A stretch of DNA of 32,221 bases from Candidatus Minthosoma caballi (lineage in GTDB: Bacteria; Bacteroidota; Bacteroidia; Bacteroidales; Bacteroidaceae). The translations under genes and the position numbers were made by a program. Positions 1-6,079 of this stretch are shown here, piece by piece. The stretch spans positions 1-32,221 of the forward strand of contig JAGHVC010000190.1 of assembly GCA_018064505.1 (NCBI GenBank). Reading direction: 5' to 3'. The notes below the pieces were generated by a model, which was not told the origin of the DNA, did not search any database, and saw only the letters and a list, made by a program, of their open reading frames with translations. Positions within the stretch are counted from its first letter, which is position 1. Each line of letters opens with the position of its first letter.

Positions 1-215
1 GTTCTTTGATAAATATCAATAAAAAGCATAATATTTTCGTTTTTCTTATTTTCGTTTTTGTCAAAAATCACAAAGAGCGTAGCTTTGCAGCGTGTTAAGA
101 AAGAACACAAGACACAAACACGACAAAAGGTTAGTTAAGGTATTAGTATTAAGGTAAGTTTTCTCAAAAAGGTATTAGTTAATAAGGTATTAGTAAGATT
201 GTTTTAGGTAAAGTA
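1..215 (+). other. Probable untranslated tail of an upstream transcription unit
   Basis: No credible ORF is seen here. The window opens with GTTCTTTGATAAATATC, whose core resembles the boxA-type antitermination sequence (CTCTTTNACA) seen in rRNA leaders. TTTG at 5-8 could equally be a -33 element, with a poor -7 box near 32-39. The phrase GGTATTAGT occurs three times (139-147, 171-179, 186-194). The stretch runs straight into a strong terminator at 216-250, so it is probably transcribed from the left. What gene or RNA precedes it lies outside the window. Confidence 0.35.
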
Positions 216-250
216 CAGAAAGCGATGCTTGTGAAAGCATCGCTTTCTTT
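216..250 (+). terminator. Intrinsic terminator
   Basis: GAAAGCGATGC (218-228) pairs perfectly with GCATCGCTTTC (237-247) around an 8-base loop. The stem ends in a T-rich TTTCTTT. It closes the transcription unit that enters from the left. Confidence 0.8.
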
Positions 251-323
251 ATGGCTCTGCTCATATAATTTTACTGATAATTTTAAGCCCTCCGCAGAGC
301 TCTTTATCTCTTTTCCCCTTTTT

Positions 324-427
324 GACTTCCCCACTTACCCTTTCCGCTCTAATTTATAGACAATGAAATGGTTATATAGGGTAAGTACCCACCCTCACAC
401 TTACCCCTATACTTACCCTGAACCTAC
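324..427 (-). repeat. Interspersed hairpin repeat, copy A (inverted)
   Basis: Read on the minus strand this matches the three plus-strand copies at 1315, 4229 and 5920. It has GGTAAGT-type blocks, a hairpin, about 45 AT-rich bases, then GGGTAAGTGGGGAAGT. The hairpin arms are TATAGGGTAAGT (375-386) and ACTTACCCCTATA (399-411), with one bulged C. It is the most divergent copy, differing mainly in the AT-rich spacer (341-374). Confidence 0.7.
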
Positions 428-740
428 CACAAAGAGCAAGCAGCAAAGGCAATCTGTTCCAGAGTTTCAGTTTCGTCTCAGTCGAATTGTTGTCAGAACG
501 ATGTTTGCAGGCTTTTCAGCATAATGTTGTGACGGCAACAGCGGTAATTTAATTGTGGCTCTTCCGTAATGTTATTCCCGCGCCTTACAGGAAAAATGTT
601 ACGGTTCGTCCGTAAATCTTTTACAGAAGAGTCAGGAAAAGTTTTACGGCGGAGGGATGGATTTGGTGATAACGAAAGGGAGCTATTTGGTGATAACGAA
701 TGTTTTCACAATTTGTACGCTATGTTTTCATTTTAAGTAC
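428..740. other. Intergenic region upstream of the mini-ORF unit
   Basis: No gene is supported. The stretch has several short ttACGG/CCGTaa words, including a perfect inverted repeat TTACGG-ttcgt-CCGTAA (599-615). It also has a 16-base direct repeat ATTTGGTGATAACGAA at 661-676 and 685-700. These sit 40 to 140 bases ahead of a promoter and could be regulator sites; that role is inference only. Confidence 0.4.
661..700 (+). promoter_or_regulatory. Tandem 16-base direct repeat, candidate operator pair
   Basis: ATTTGGTGATAACGAA occurs twice with a 24-base period, ending 40 bases before the -33 element of the promoter at 741-770. The placement fits a regulator acting on the mini-ORF unit. No regulator is identified. 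Confidence 0.35.
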
Positions 741-770
741 TTTGCGTGTAGGAAAATCGCCGTACCTTTG
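741..770 (+). promoter_or_regulatory. Bacteroidota-type promoter of the mini-ORF unit
   Basis: TTTG at 741-744 and TACCTTTG at 763-770 are separated by 18 bases, matching the TTTG / TAnnTTTG consensus. Transcription should start at about 775-780, just before an A-rich leader. Confidence 0.75.
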
Positions 771-818
771 CATCGTCAAACAAAAACAAAATGTACAACC
801 TCTTAAAATTACACAACT

Positions 819-857
819 ATGAGTCTTATCGAAATTCTCATCCATCTCTTCGGATAA
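819..857 (+). CDS. 12-codon mini-ORF, copy 1 (MSLIEILIHLFG)
   Basis: ATG at 819, stop TAA at 855-857, followed at once by an in-frame TGA. The peptide is short and hydrophobic, with one Glu and one His. The ATG is preceded by the A-rich TTAAAATTACACAACT, typical of Bacteroidota translation starts. The whole ORF recurs unchanged 117 bases downstream. No function is recognised: a type I toxin-like peptide, a signal, or a regulatory leader peptide are all possible. It competes with a longer frame (791-1030, 79 codons) on the same strand, so coding status is unproven. Confidence 0.4.
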   Translation: MSLIEILIHLFG

Positions 858-935
858 TGATTCCGAGACACAACAAAATAACAGATTGCACATCTGCAGT
901 ACATAAACTTTACAAATTCTTAAAATTACACAACT

Positions 936-974
936 ATGAGTCTTATCGAAATTCTCATCCATCTCTTCGGATAA
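936..974 (+). CDS. 12-codon mini-ORF, copy 2 (MSLIEILIHLFG)
   Basis: Identical at DNA level to copy 1, including the 18 bases before the ATG and the TAA TGA double stop. It lies in the second 117-base module, 65 bases before the terminator stem. Because the copies do not differ, no substitution pattern within this window can tell coding from RNA-level constraint. Confidence 0.4.
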   Translation: MSLIEILIHLFG

Positions 975-1039
975 TGATTCCGAGACACAACAAACAGCAG
1001 ATTTCACATCTGCAGTACATACAGTTATAGTAGCTGAAC

Positions 1040-1080
1040 TTTGAGCCTACCTTTTCGCAAGGGTGGGCTCAAATTTTTTT
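1040..1080 (+). terminator. Intrinsic terminator of the mini-ORF unit
   Basis: TTTGAGCCTACC (1040-1051) pairs with GGTGGGCTCAAA (1062-1073), with one T-G wobble, followed by seven or more T residues. It is strong and correctly oriented for the transcript from 776. Confidence 0.9.
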
Positions 1081-1226
1081 AGTGGGATAATTTTCATGGC
1101 TATGTTGTACATTTTGACTGATAATTTGGGAATGCCTACAGAGCGAGTCAGTTTTAGTGCCAATTTGCTCATGATGTAGGTAATTTAGTATGTGATTGCT
1201 ATTTCTTACGCCCTTTGAGAAGCGGT

Positions 1227-1291
1227 ACTCATGCCCTGTAAGAAGCGGTTTGTATGCTCTGTGCGAACCGCTACTCATGCCCTGTAAGAAG
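1227..1291. repeat. Direct repeat flanking an inverted repeat
   Basis: ACTCATGCCCTGTAAGAAG occurs at 1227-1245 and 1273-1291. Between the copies, GCGGTT (1245-1250) and AACCGC (1266-1271) form an inverted repeat. No gene is seen between 1081 and 1560, and the role of this structure is unknown. Confidence 0.6.
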
Positions 1292-1314
1292 GACATTCTC
1301 AGCTTGATTATTCG

Positions 1315-1484
1315 AGGTAAGTACAGGGGGAAGTATAGGGTAAGTGTCTGTATGGGTACTTACCCTATATAACTTTCTAATTATCTGTCTATTATAGCGA
1401 AAAGGGTAAGTGGGGAAGTAGAAAGAATGTGAAGATGTAAAAAACAAAATGGGTATAGAATTTCTCCTTCCCTTGATTTTCGCT
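1315..1484 (+). repeat. Interspersed hairpin repeat, copy B
   Basis: The hairpin TATAGGGTAAGT (1334-1345) / ACTTACCCTATA (1358-1369) is perfect for 12 pairs and extends inward by wobble pairs to a GTAT loop. After an AT-rich spacer comes GGGTAAGTGGGGAAGTAGA. Similarity with copy D continues about 55 bases further (GATGTAAAA..., then CTCCTT...TTGATTTT against CTCCTTAATTTT), so the full element may be about 165 bases. Confidence 0.85.
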
Positions 1485-1560
1485 ATCAATTATTCTTTTT
1501 TCTTTTTGTGTGAGACGCCTCTGTGTTTAATGTTTTTATATACATTATTTGACCAATTTC

Positions 1561-1591
1561 TTTCTCGTTCAGATTTTTATTTATAACTTTG
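1561..1591 (+). promoter_or_regulatory. Bacteroidota-type promoter upstream of the two-gene operon
   Basis: A consensus -7 box TAACTTTG lies at 1584-1591, with TTTC (one mismatch to TTTG) at 1561-1564, 19 bases upstream. A start near 1598 leaves a leader of about 225 bases before the ATG at 1823. A terminator-like hairpin lies inside that leader. Confidence 0.6.
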
Positions 1592-1710
1592 TGGATGAAT
1601 TGCCTCTATGCCTGAGTCATTTTGAAAGAGTGATGGATGGGCGAGAGCAAATTAGAGAAAGTGTTTTTCGTGCTTGGTCTTTGACTGTTGAAACTTTGAA
1701 AACTTCAGCA

Positions 1711-1748
1711 GTGAAGCGGTCAACATTGGGCTTCACGCTTTCTTTTTC
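1711..1748 (+). terminator. Terminator-like hairpin in the leader (attenuator or sRNA end)
   Basis: GTGAAGC (1711-1717) pairs with GCTTCAC (1730-1736), followed by GCTTTCTTTTT. It lies between the promoter at 1561-1591 and the gene at 1823. It could therefore end a small RNA of about 150 bases or attenuate the operon. Confidence 0.4.
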
Positions 1749-1822
1749 ATGTGCTTGCGAGCATATAATATAATAATGTATAATGTCTGAACAGAAGCCC
1801 TAAGACACTTAACAATAGTTTT

Positions 1823-3301
1823 ATGCTATCTGAACAATTAAAAGAACTGATATACTTGGCCGTTGAGCCAAATTGCTTCGATGAAGATAAGCGTCAGGTA
1901 ATCTACAGACGAGCTGATAGCGAAGGAAGCAATCGTCGTGAAGCGGATGAATACATAACCGAATTGCTATCTGCAAAATATCAGACAACTAAAAAACAGA
2001 GAACAAGCAAGCTAGATTATCTGAAGAAGTTCTTCCTGAAAAGATTGCACATTAATGGGGAGAGATTTTGGATTGATTGCATTCAATGTGACGGGCAAAC
2101 CATCGAGGCGGGAAGAAAGCATGCGTATTTGTTCTTTGGCAAGCCTATTTCATATTCGATACCCGTTGAAGACCTTGTGTACTTTGACATTTTCAGCAAG
2201 GTAGGAGTGCGCAAAAGAGCAGAATTCGGCAGTAAGGATTCGCAGTGGGATGTAAGACTCACAAAAGCAGATGCTGATGAACTGCGACAGGTGTGCATCA
2301 ATCATCTCGCGCGCTTTTCTTGGCCTGATGTGAAAATATACAAGACAGATAGAACCAAGACTCACTCCTTGACCCAGCCATTGCTTTGGGTCAGCAACGA
2401 CTGTATCATAAGAAGCCACAACTGCATGGGAGGAACAGAAAGCCGTGATATTGTTGATATTAAAGATGTTGCTTTCTTCTGCAAAACGAAAGGCGCTTTG
2501 AATTCTAACATTTACTTTGGCTATTATGATCAAATAGATATTGATGGCGTGCCACATAAGCTCGCCGATTATCTTGAGAATCATTGCAAAGAACATGGTG
2601 CGAAGATTGCCAAAGACCTGCTTCATGTGTTTAAGCCTGCGGATTCATTTGTCAAGAAGCTTAACCCTGCTAATTGGTTCAACAATGAAAAAGTTGTATT
2701 GAACGACGAAGCTATCATATATTATAGCAAGTCGTTGTTCAGCACAGAGTGCACTTACCTCCCTTACGAGAAAGTAAAAGTAGCAGATTTCGGTAGGGGG
2801 CTTTTTGGCAAGAGCATTAATCTTTTCGGAGAACAGAACATCATTACTCGCTACAAATACTCAAGCGGAAAATGCGTTGATGTGATTAAAAAAGAGTTGG
2901 ACAAGCATGGCATAAAACCAGGATTCGCAAGAGTTTATTATTCATGGCCGTGGTCTCGCGCATTTGGTGCAGATGTTGTAGCTATCACACATGAAGGCTT
3001 GTGCTTGTCTGCCCGTGAATACCAAGGCGGTGGCGTTTTCGGAAGAAGAAAAACATATTACCTACCGTATAGCGACATTATTCACTATGACAAATTTTGG
3101 TGGCGTGTTCTTTGGCGAACATATTACATCAAAGCTAAAGTACAAACCATTAGAAAAGACCAAAATACGAAATTTGTTAATTTCAAGTTCCGCAGGATGG
3201 TGTTCTGGTGCAATTTGTTCAAAACTTTGACGGGCTCAAGTGCTAAACAGGACGAACGAGAGCACAAGATTTGTAAAGAGGATTATAAGGAATTCAAATA
3301 A
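1823..3301 (+). CDS. Protein with four PH-like repeats, function unknown
   Basis: This 492-residue soluble protein has no signal peptide. Residues 1-52 form a short helical module (LSEQLKELIYLAV...DEDKRQVIYRRA...) of the type placed at the N-terminus of many Bacteroidota membrane or regulatory proteins. Four divergent repeats of about 80-95 residues follow, near 71-165, 184-260, 278-363 and 380-470. Each shows a 'D/HE-x-IIxxS' strand, a 'xLPYxDI/V' strand and often a Gly-rich turn before aromatic strands, as in bacterial PH domains (for example LPYEKVKVADF and LPYSDIIHYDKF). I infer PH-like folds from this pattern only. The next gene starts 9 bases downstream and has a similar N-terminal module plus a membrane span, so the two are probably co-transcribed and act together at the inner membrane. 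No catalytic motif is seen. Confidence 0.75.
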   Translation: MLSEQLKELIYLAVEPNCFDEDKRQVIYRRADSEGSNRREADEYITELLSAKYQTTKKQRTSKLDYLKKFFLKRLHINGERFWIDCIQCDGQTIEAGRKHAYLFFGKPISYSIPVEDLVYFDIFSKVGVRKRAEFGSKDSQWDVRLTKADADELRQVCINHLARFSWPDVKIYKTDRTKTHSLTQPLLWVSNDCIIRSHNCMGGTESRDIVDIKDVAFFCKTKGALNSNIYFGYYDQIDIDGVPHKLADYLENHCKEHGAKIAKDLLHVFKPADSFVKKLNPANWFNNEKVVLNDEAIIYYSKSLFSTECTYLPYEKVKVADFGRGLFGKSINLFGEQNIITRYKYSSGKCVDVIKKELDKHGIKPGFARVYYSWPWSRAFGADVVAITHEGLCLSAREYQGGGVFGRRKTYYLPYSDIIHYDKFWWRVLWRTYYIKAKVQTIRKDQNTKFVNFKFRRMVFWCNLFKTLTGSSAKQDEREHKICKEDYKEFK

Positions 3302-3310
3302 AAGGAAAAG

Positions 3311-4195
3311 ATGTACTCAAAAGAATTTGATAAAAAAATAGAAGAAGCTGTTGCGGAAGGACAGATATCTAAAAGTGGCAGAGCTACTTTGCATAGTGAG
3401 GCTTCACCGCAGAAGATCGATGATGAGGAATTGGATATTGTCATCGATGGAAAAGCATATCTGGCAAGAAATGGCAAAGAATATGAAGGGCTGGAAGGCA
3501 TAAGCACATATGCTCAATCCACAGAGTCTGAGGTAGAAACATCTGACGATGACGGGTTCAATCTAATGAAACTGCTAAAGCTGATTTTCCATAGTCGCAT
3601 AGCATTGGTCATAGCCATCATAGCTCTCATAATTCTGCTTTGGCCTGTCATTCTCCTCATCTTAGTGTATTTTGTTTCATTGTTCCCAAGTGGTTCCGAT
3701 TCGGCAAAACAAGAAACAGCTGCCAATGACACAACCGCCATTGTAACACAAAATGCTGAGAGTGCAGAAAGCATAGAACAAGCACCAAAGGAGAATAATA
3801 TTGCTGATGACAATATTGTTACCACACCCGACGGCCAACGATGCCGCATAGAATTTATCGACCGCACACTCTACGCAACAGTATTAGGAGATGACGGCTC
3901 AGAGCTTCGTGAAAAGGAGATGAAATTTGACAATAAGATAACTGAATTCTGCTGTGCAGGCTCTGCGGTATATGTCATTGTAAACATGCTGGAAGATGGA
4001 GAACAGTCCAGCTTGCCTTTTGTAGGTTTGTATAAAGTGGATGTTTACAATGAGCGTTGGGAGTTTATGGAAACATCCAACTACATATCTTTCAACAAAT
4101 CCGCAAAGAAGATTCACCTGAAAACAGCAAACGGACTTGCAGGAGATAGTGAGGCAGATGGATATTTGTGGGATGAAAGAGACATAAACATGTAA
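3311..4195 (+). CDS. Single-pass membrane protein with N-terminal helical module
   Basis: This 294-residue protein has three parts. Residues 1-50 resemble the N-terminal module of the preceding protein (EFDKKIEEAVAEGQISKSG...). An acidic linker leads to one strong membrane span at about 96-126. A Ser/Thr/Ala-rich stretch (about 127-165) then leads to a C-terminal beta-rich domain (about 170-290). With no signal peptide and one internal span, the N-terminus is probably cytoplasmic and the C-terminal domain periplasmic. It begins 9 bases after the PH-repeat gene. Interspersed repeat copy C follows 33 bases after the stop and its hairpin may serve as transcript end. No family name is recognised and the function is unknown. 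Confidence 0.7.
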   Translation: MYSKEFDKKIEEAVAEGQISKSGRATLHSEASPQKIDDEELDIVIDGKAYLARNGKEYEGLEGISTYAQSTESEVETSDDDGFNLMKLLKLIFHSRIALVIAIIALIILLWPVILLILVYFVSLFPSGSDSAKQETAANDTTAIVTQNAESAESIEQAPKENNIADDNIVTTPDGQRCRIEFIDRTLYATVLGDDGSELREKEMKFDNKITEFCCAGSAVYVIVNMLEDGEQSSLPFVGLYKVDVYNERWEFMETSNYISFNKSAKKIHLKTANGLAGDSEADGYLWDERDINM

Positions 4196-4228: not shown

Positions 4229-4337
4229 TGGTAAGTCTGGGGTAAAGTATAGGGTAAGTGTCCGCATGGGTACTTACCCTATATAACTTTCTAATTATCT
4301 GTCTATTATAGCGAAAAGGGTAAGTGGGGAAGTAGAA
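4229..4337 (+). repeat. Interspersed hairpin repeat, copy C
   Basis: Starts with GGTAAGTCTGGGG, shared exactly with copy D. The hairpin arms are TATAGGGTAAGT (4248-4259) and ACTTACCCTATA (4272-4283); the stem continues GTCC/GGGT to a GCAT loop, giving 16 pairs including wobbles. It ends in GGGTAAGTGGGGAAGTAGA. From the hairpin through this end it is nearly identical to copy B. It lacks the extended tail seen in B and D. Confidence 0.85.
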
Positions 4338-4414
4338 ATAGGGAAAAAGGGGTTCTTCACCAATTTAGGTGCTGAATTTGAGAACCAAGCCATCAAGTAG
4401 CAAACGCCAACATA

Positions 4415-4936: not shown

Positions 4937-5212
4937 ATGAAAGCAAAAGAACCTATTATGACTTATATATCAATGCCTTCCACTTCCATCATGCGAGGTA
5001 GGCTGATTGAAGCTTTAGCGAATGAAAATGATGCAAGTTTCATTCAAACGATGTATGTAATGATGGTTCAAATAAAAAAAGAGTCGTATACTAAGGAGCC
5101 TGCAAAGTATTCCTTGTCAGAGCTTAAGGGCATTCTTGCCCATAATGACAGCAATGAATTGTCGTATGATGAAATGCGTATGGCGTACATGAAGGATAAG
5201 TTTTCGCTATGA
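4937..5212 (+). CDS. Putative antitoxin paired with PIN toxin
   Basis: This 91-residue protein starts at the ATG 17 bases after a consensus promoter. The N-terminal half carries no clear ribbon-helix-helix or helix-turn-helix motif. The C-terminal part (YSLSELKGIL, then YDEMRMAYMKDKFSL) is helical and charged, as expected for a toxin-wrapping tail. The assignment rests on its position: its stop codon TGA (5210-5212) overlaps an ATG (5209) in the ATGA arrangement usual for antitoxin-toxin pairs, and the next frame is a PIN domain. It probably represses its own promoter, although this cannot be seen in the sequence. Confidence 0.6.
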   Translation: MKAKEPIMTYISMPSTSIMRGRLIEALANENDASFIQTMYVMMVQIKKESYTKEPAKYSLSELKGILAHNDSNELSYDEMRMAYMKDKFSL

Positions 5213-5645
5213 AGAATTTCTTGATACAAATGTAGTGATGGATTATCTTGCATCACGGGGAGATGTAGAATCCGTAAGCAGAATCTTCAAACAGATAGAA
5301 GAAGGAGCGCATTCGGCGTTCATTTCAATAGGATCTTTCTATACGATAACTTATCTTACTGAGATTTTTCTCAAAAACAAAGGCTTGGAAAAAACAGAAA
5401 GGATTAAGATGCTCCGTGCCACATTGGAATCCTTGCTGGTGTATCTCAATGTAGCTGGACACACCAAAGCACAATTGTTGAAAGGTGTGAAAGATGTGGA
5501 ATTTCAGGATATTGAAGATTCATATCAGTATCAAGCTGCATTGTCTGCAAAATGTGAATGTTTGATTACAAGTAATATAAAGGATTTTTGTGAATTGGAA
5601 AATCCATTGATAGATATTATATTGCCGAAAGATTTCTGTAATTGA
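5209..5645 (+). CDS. PIN-domain (VapC-like) toxin with frameshifted start
   Basis: The open frame reads EEFLDTNVVMDYLASRG..., then DIEDSYQYQAALSAKCECLITSNIKDF near the end. This is a PIN ribonuclease fold with acids in LDTN, in TYLTEIF, in DIEDS and in NIKDF. Such proteins cleave RNA, often tRNA, using metal. The expected ATG at 5209, overlapping the antitoxin stop, is in another frame: it reads MKNFLIQM and stops at 5233-5235. One extra base after the ATG would restore M-K-x-F-L-D-T-N. Within the PIN frame the first usual starts are GTG 5235 and ATG 5238, which would lose the LDTN aspartate. It is therefore probably inactive, shifted by a sequencing error, or started unusually. The rest of the frame is intact. 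Confidence 0.7.
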
Positions 5646-5919: not shown

Positions 5920-6079
5920 TGGTAAGTCTGGGGGTAAGTATAGGGTAAGTGCCCGCATGGATACTTACCCTATATAACTTTATAATTATTTGTCGATTAT
6001 AACGAAAAGGGTAAGTGGGTAAGTAGAGAAAGATGTAAAACGACAGAATAGGTAGAACTTTGCCATCTCCTTAATTTTT
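5920..6079 (+). repeat. Interspersed hairpin repeat, copy D
   Basis: Hairpin arms TATAGGGTAAGT (5939-5950) and ACTTACCCTATA (5963-5974), a spacer with a few changes (TTTATAATTATTTGTCGATT), then GGGTAAGTGGGTAAGTAGA. A tail similar to copy B runs to about 6079. It lies between the accessory region and the core genes, just downstream of the CobW-type gene. Confidence 0.85.

Follow-up and report, generated by a model that had tools for sequence, protein, structure and literature searches.

The window, meaning the whole 32,221-nt stretch of Candidatus Minthosoma caballi DNA that we analyzed, is contig 70 of a 3.2-Mb draft genome in 245 contigs (completeness 88%, contamination 4%). Close to its left end lies a compact unit of about 300 bases, in which two 117-base modules (788-904 and 905-1021) stand in tandem between promoter and terminator signals. 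Each module contains a leader, a 12-codon open reading frame (ORF) encoding the peptide MSLIEILIHLFG, and three predicted hairpins. The features of the unit and of the repeat element around it are as follows.

303-406, + strand: left arm of a dispersed inverted-repeat (MITE-like) element; 104 nt, 77% complementary to 1338-1441
705-719, + strand: upstream promoter element TTCACAATTTGTACG, a 15-mer, 43 nt before the -7 box; recurs in a congener (G025)
741-744, + strand: -33 box TTTG, 18 nt before the -7 box; from the sequence and the consensus given in PMC7366714
763-770, + strand: -7 box TACCTTTG; from the sequence motif scan
776-818, + strand: A-rich leader of module 1, with 6/6 favorable adenines before ATG 819
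791-1030, + strand: 79-aa frame that spans both modules and overlaps the mini-ORFs; judged noncoding (codon score -0.60)
819-857, + strand: mini-ORF copy 1, MSLIEILIHLFG, TAA stop, coding-like codon use; second stop TGA at 858-860
819-841, + strand: predicted start-codon hairpin, copy 1; ATGAG 819-823 with CTCAT 837-841, 5 pairs
849-867, + strand: predicted hairpin over the double stop, copy 1
882-896, + strand: predicted third hairpin, copy 1; CAGAT/ATCTG
905-935, + strand: leader of module 2; from the repeat comparison and start context
936-974, + strand: mini-ORF copy 2, all bases identical to copy 1; second stop TGA at 975-977
936-958, + strand: predicted start-codon hairpin, copy 2
966-984, + strand: predicted hairpin over the double stop, copy 2
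997-1013, + strand: predicted third hairpin, copy 2; GCAGAT/ATCTGC
1040-1080, + strand: intrinsic terminator; stem-loop 1040-1073 (15 pairs) and a T tract (7 T)
1338-1441, - strand: right arm of the MITE-like element; from the inverted-repeat comparison and own-genome alignment

Architecture of the tandem unit

An earlier, sequence-only reading of this DNA had described two 117-base modules with 77 identical bases, the identical part covering the leader, ORF, and first hairpin. Both statements held. Direct-repeat comparison paired 788-877 with 905-994 (90 nt, 96%) and 876-910 with 992-1026 (35 nt, 86%), a period of 116-117, and the sequence is identical without interruption for 77 bases (801-877 versus 918-994). 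When the modules were aligned, 9 of 118 columns differed, gap columns counted, and all of the differences fell outside the identical run. If differences were placed at random, at least 74 identical columns in a row would arise with P ~0.0008; this test used 74 columns because the aligner set a 1-nt gap within the 77-base stretch. The identity of the core points to either constraint on, or recent homogenization of, the leader, ORF, and stop hairpin.

In both copies, ATGAGTCTTATCGAAATTCTCATCCATCTCTTCGGA is followed by TAA TGA (819-860 and 936-977), so that each ORF consists of ATG plus 11 codons and a double stop. The A-rich leader, hydrophobic 12-codon ORF, and in-frame TAA TGA ascribed to each module were thus present twice. 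An overlapping stop/start, TAATG, also occurs in both copies.

The claim that a promoter and a terminator frame about 300 bases as a stand-alone unit is likewise upheld at the level of signals: TTTG and TACCTTTG correspond to the -33/-7 promoter consensus of the phylum as quoted in PMC7366714, and the terminator forms a 15-pair hairpin. Transcription would probably start near 775. Three terminator-like sites were found in 600-1300, compared to a shuffle mean of 0.4. The bare motif TAnnTTTG is common in the window (33 observed, 20.5 expected). A general promoter scan, built for another promoter type, made no call at 741-770.

The upstream element gave a more specific pattern. Allowing a spacing of 38-48, we found TTCACAATTTGTACG together with a -7 box in 2 of 45 genomes, once in the source genome and at five places in congener G025, each with exactly 43 nt between the two; a reversed-pattern control gave no matches in the 45 genomes. 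ORFs of 171, 279, and 433 codons follow three of the five G025 places; a fourth runs into a contig end, and at the fifth no ORF starting within 300 nt exceeds 43 codons. The promoter of the unit thus resembles a type that, in one relative, drives real genes.

We also observed that the five G025 places (contigs 12, 27, 51, 55, and 89) have a long upstream region in common (TTCACAATTTGTACG, 43 nt, TACCTTTG), and that the three inspected also have a common 5′ UTR with different ORFs downstream. The same promoter type, with a long AGGTTAG-rich leader, is present in the congeners L006, L009, L014, L024, and L078; in L006, L014, and L078 the leader runs on to an ORF of ~25 codons that encodes a hydrophobic peptide (MATMTIIAAVLVAVAAIVANISILK, for example). 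By eye, window positions 120-210 hold a similar AGGTTAG-rich leader that lacks the ~25-codon ORF.

Folding of the 305-nt RNA gave -66.7 kcal/mol, compared to -41.4 (sd 4.0) for 100 shuffles (z -6.4), a difference to which the terminator and the repeat contribute; single modules differed from shuffles by z -1.8 and -2.4 only. Three small hairpins were predicted per module, at the start codon, at the double stop, and downstream. The latter two are the hairpin over the stops and the second hairpin that had been noticed in each module, and the start-codon hairpin is a feature absent from that account. At the foot of the third hairpin, an A/C mismatch in copy 1 is replaced by a G-C pair in copy 2. 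Rfam 15 gave no match at the gathering score anywhere in the window.

The repeat element around the unit

The unit is enclosed by the two 104-nt arms, which the sequence-only reading did not mention. A query covering the left arm (290-440) had 20 matches in the source genome at E<=0.001, and a query covering the arm and interior (300-660) had 16; the latter had none in 44 congeners at E<=1e-8, and the carrier element was not found among plasmids. We aligned four other complete inverted pairs (contigs 217, 222, 101, and 191) and a partial copy on contig 50. All four complete copies are without the unit. In these copies, 72, 118, 73, and 85 bases separate the interior's shared TTTTACGG from the first GGTAAGT-type motif of the right arm, and in the partial copy the distances are 28 bases to a GGTAAGT-type motif and 50 to the next. 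The corresponding distance in the window copy is 666 bases, and the extra stretch contains the whole unit.

Judged by its sequence, the carrier is MITE-like: it has inverted terminal repeats in several dispersed copies and no transposase gene inside, the interiors of about 240-350 bases being too short for one. Like MITEs and REP-type repeats, it has inverted arms of ~105 nt, a length of ~500 bp, and four other complete copies in this genome. It departs from them in that, among the aligned copies, the window copy alone has ~550-600 extra bases with a promoter and ORFs. The arms are rich in GGGTAAGT/ACTTACCC motifs, and partnerless single arms occur at window positions 4229-4347 and 5932-6024 and on contigs 165, 101, 217, and 9.

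Two stretches past the terminator, 1093-1130 and 1196-1298, gave matches to other dispersed repeats. The stretches 1093-1130 and 264-283 are pieces of a second dispersed repeat, like ATGGCTATGTTGTACATTTTGACTGATAATTTTGG, which in several copies is followed by CCACCCACAGAG; it has further copies in the source genome, ten of which were inspected. Positions 1207-1291 contain a 39-base repeat three times, 23 bases apart, with related stretches on contigs 9, 163, 101, 91, and 98. The next + strand gene of note starts at 1823, ~750 nt past the terminator, and the right arm and a -7-like site at 1584 lie between. Two neighboring ORFs of 492 and 294 aa (1823-4195) have no Pfam match, and the 492-aa ORF has one weak match (G022) among 44 congeners. 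Farther along, 4937-5645 holds a possible toxin-antitoxin pair, in which a 91-aa ORF without a Pfam match precedes a PIN-domain protein (PF13470, E 4e-6); this pair sits between two single arms of the MITE-like element.

Translation signals, relatives, and rarity

Start codons in Bacteroidota obey rules other than Shine-Dalgarno, and in Flavobacterium johnsoniae an A at -3, -6, and about -11 to -14 favors initiation (PMC6847099). Both ATG 819 and ATG 936 are preceded by A at all six of the favorable positions (-3, -6, and -11 to -14). This score was reached by 3 of the 1474 ATGs in the window, two of which are the mini-ORF starts, while 18 hand-picked gene starts of the window scored 0-5 and none reached 6.

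Codon use was assessed on the mini-ORF without its Met, which scored 0.37 per codon (0.27 when the base composition of the unit served as background). A score of 0.37 was reached by 34% of 754 in-frame 11-codon chunks from the 18 window genes and by 1-5% of 754 wrong-frame chunks in each of five frames; a stretch as short as 12 codons does not allow a firm call. The repeat contains two further open frames that the earlier account had left out, one of 79 aa from ATG 791 on the + strand and one of 95 aa on the - strand. With an own-composition background, the mini-ORF scored 0.17, compared to -0.60 and -0.62 for the 79-aa and 95-aa frames; in-frame 79-codon chunks of window genes had a mean of 0.22 (sd 0.13). 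We rejected both frames as genes, the 95-aa frame as not coding-like and the 79-aa frame (791-1030) on its codon score and the lack of any PHROGs or phage match.

The peptide has 12 residues, 8 of them hydrophobic. Among 315 short ATG ORFs in the window, this hydrophobicity is reached by 7, which include both copies. Its hydrophobic moment of 0.35, compared to 0.20 (sd 0.10) for shuffles, is not decisive for an amphipathic helix.

A model of the two modules found 9 weak matches in 8 of the 44 congeners. Five of these place the module ATG where an ORF of 102-526 codons begins, 3-11 codons after an in-frame stop; a sixth places it on an 18-codon ORF resembling one of the five. We discarded the nine as relatives of the unit; what they show is a likeness of its leader to ordinary gene starts. 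The gene-start pattern was seen in none of four weak matches from the family sample described below; in L101, the ATG lies within a longer frame. The leader 13-mer TTACACAACTATG was also considered as a sequence enriched in the source genome and was rejected, with 4 further one-mismatch matches compared to 2 and 5 for controls; one of the four starts a 133-codon ORF. Start context, codon use, hydropathy, and the gene-start-like leader together suggest that the mini-ORF could be translated, in keeping with the earlier view of it as a mini-ORF.

The earlier account had named a lack of homologous units in related genomes as a result that would count against it, and this was the result obtained: none was found among the congeners, the family sample, or the viral contigs searched. 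The family sample comprised 399 genomes: the source genome, 33 of the 44 congeners, and 365 from other genera. The back-translated peptide had no match with up to 3 mismatches in the 44 congeners, and no homologue that could show synonymous changes was detected in these or in the 365 family genomes of other genera. Searching the 399 genomes with a relaxed peptide pattern and up to 2 mismatches gave the unit's own locus and one other match, compared to 2 for the reversed control; we attribute the other match (G195) to chance, as it has two mismatches and no ATG start. An exact match to the degenerate peptide pattern in Niallia nealsonii, from the genome_contigs collection, was also judged to be chance. 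Viral contigs contained neither the exact DNA nor the relaxed pattern, and a sensitive DNA search of phages and plasmids at E<=1e-5 found no match to the unit.

An RNA model of the module gave nothing credible in the 44 congeners or in the 398 other genomes of the family sample, where stricter filters and the best 9 candidates per genome were used, so that weak relatives could escape. Four RNA-model matches in the 399 genomes (E 0.013-0.19 per genome) are at chance level. With 741-1080 as a DNA query against 45 genus genomes, taking the best 16 candidates per genome, 42 genomes including the source had matches. Among the matches listed beyond the unit itself, all but one lay in query positions 1-82 (promoter and leader); we did not accept these as kin, since they reflect a widespread promoter and leader type. 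The exception, in G010, covers query 137-172 within a coding-looking stretch. The literature search did not find the peptide string MSLIEILIHLFG, nor work on this unit in the literature on type I toxins and small hydrophobic tandem peptides of Prevotella and Bacteroidetes, and a search for Prevotella small RNAs, transcription start sites, and sORFs found none. As far as these comparisons reach, the unit is without known relatives, though such absence does not show lack of function.

To gauge how rare the arrangement is, we scanned 665,154 bases, consisting of the window and 632,933 bases of the source genome (about a fifth of it, a non-random sample). The scan contained 469 TAHHTTTG sites, 25 of which were dropped at stretch ends. 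A terminator-like hairpin lay within 330 nt of 13 of the 469 -7-like sites, in no case with a 100-aa ORF starting between. Of these 13 sites, two contained a short ORF whose start score was at least 4, and the window locus alone had a repeat or a start score of 6. In this unit and at one place on contig 208, exact direct repeats of 40 bases stood 40-400 apart. No second such unit was present in the ~20% of the genome scanned. The unit is well formed and unique within the scanned part of the genome, its signs of translation are better than the sequence-only reading could have known, and any function it may have is putative.

What the unit may do

The explanation we favor, tentatively and at somewhat less than an even chance, is that the locus produces a stand-alone micro-mRNA whose two ORFs are both translated into MSLIEILIHLFG. 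A normal Bacteroidota initiation leader and its 12-codon ORF would have been duplicated in tandem, inside a MITE-like element that was absent from the congeners searched. The ~300-nt micro-mRNA would be driven by the primary-sigma promoter type of the phylum. Ribosomes would initiate on each transcript at both 819 and 936, so that the hydrophobic peptide would be made in two copies, and hairpins would cover the two stop sites. From these signals we infer that the unit is transcribed and translated and that it is young; with 8 of its 12 residues hydrophobic, the peptide presumably acts at the inner membrane. Set against this explanation, the identical core may come from gene conversion or recent duplication. 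Also weighing against it are the lack of homologues in the genomes searched, the 5-pair hairpin predicted over the start codon, the unenriched leader 13-mer, and the commonness of the bare -7 motif.

The lack of relatives in the searches made, the intergenic setting with pieces of several dispersed repeats, and the existence of carrier copies without the unit would all fit a proto-gene or by-product, that is, a promoter and leader captured in a mobile repeat and duplicated by chance, maybe expressed but with no selected function. We regard this as somewhat unlikely, as the 77-base core has stayed unchanged while its flanks drifted, as the unit has its promoter signals, its terminator, and an optimal start context, and as the scanned fifth of the genome holds no second such unit. 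Less probable still is a regulatory RNA, either a small RNA or a target decoy with two binding modules, in which the hairpins and leader do the work and the ORF is a bystander. Its first leader (787-799) can pair without mismatch with 1104-1116, a 13-nt inverted repeat whose distal half lies in a dispersed repeat past the terminator with further copies in the genome, but the second module does not preserve this complementarity. The three small predicted hairpins per module, the fold of the whole RNA (z -6.4), and the change from A/C mismatch to G-C pair at the foot of the third hairpin agree with a structural role, whereas the gain over shuffles is slight for single modules (z -1.8 and -2.4), Rfam has no match, and codon use and start context favor translation.

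In Escherichia coli, Ldr and Ibs occur in tandem copies, and the earlier account had likened the design of this unit to such small toxic peptides or to regulatory mini-ORFs, noting that its peptide is shorter than those toxins. Like Ibs/Sib and Ldr/Rdl, the unit has a short hydrophobic peptide, a short stand-alone mRNA, and close similar copies; it differs in its 12 residues, its single promoter for two ORFs, the absence of a visible antisense promoter, and the lack of relatives. A type I toxin-antitoxin-like system, in which a membrane toxin peptide is held off by antisense RNA and the two copies serve as a dose or redundancy device, would suit the stand-alone promoter signals, the structured mRNA, and the mobile-element setting, and seven antisense pairs of such architecture are reported in Bacteroides thetaiotaomicron (PMC7366714). 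IbsC, however, is reported to remain toxic when shortened to 15 residues, at least 10 of them hydrophobic (PMC8309996), and because the present peptide (12 residues, 8 hydrophobic) is below this minimum, it would not belong to the Ibs/Ldr type. No exact TAnnTTTG was seen on the minus strand of 1-3129, a search that covers this promoter type and cis-encoded antisense RNA. Kinship with the type I toxins was not supported, failing on peptide length, and we consider a type I-like system very unlikely.

Transcription-attenuation leader peptides are mini-ORFs with a stop-codon hairpin ahead of a terminator, an order of parts that the unit reproduces. Ribosomes on the mini-ORF might govern the terminator, or re-initiate at the TAATG overlap present in both copies and enter a 57-aa frame (857-1030). 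Unlike attenuation leaders, the unit has no regulated gene close downstream, consists of two identical ORFs, and encodes no single-amino-acid run, and the frame holding the 57-aa ORF is not coding-like (-0.60). Since the next + strand gene of note starts at 1823, with the right arm and the -7-like site at 1584 in between, an attenuator or coupled leader is the least probable of the readings that we weighed.

We return to the micro-mRNA that would be translated twice. Genome annotation seldom includes micropeptides below 15 codons. In B. thetaiotaomicron, 409 sORF candidates have been predicted, seven of them supported by ribosome profiling (PMC7366714). The unit shares with those predicted sORFs a phylum-typical promoter and a short ORF, and differs from them in its tandem identical ORFs on one predicted transcript inside a repeat element. 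A bolder version, which we put forward as a long shot, is that the MITE-like element, being non-autonomous, took up a twin micro-gene whose peptide, in a hitch-hiking or addiction role, affects the host membrane or translation. If so, no smaller peptide gene of this sort and no earlier MITE cargo of its kind would be known to us. With two identical ORFs, one promoter, and one terminator, the unit would offer a clean natural test of mini-ORF initiation and termination, and also a test of whether mobile repeats seed new genes.
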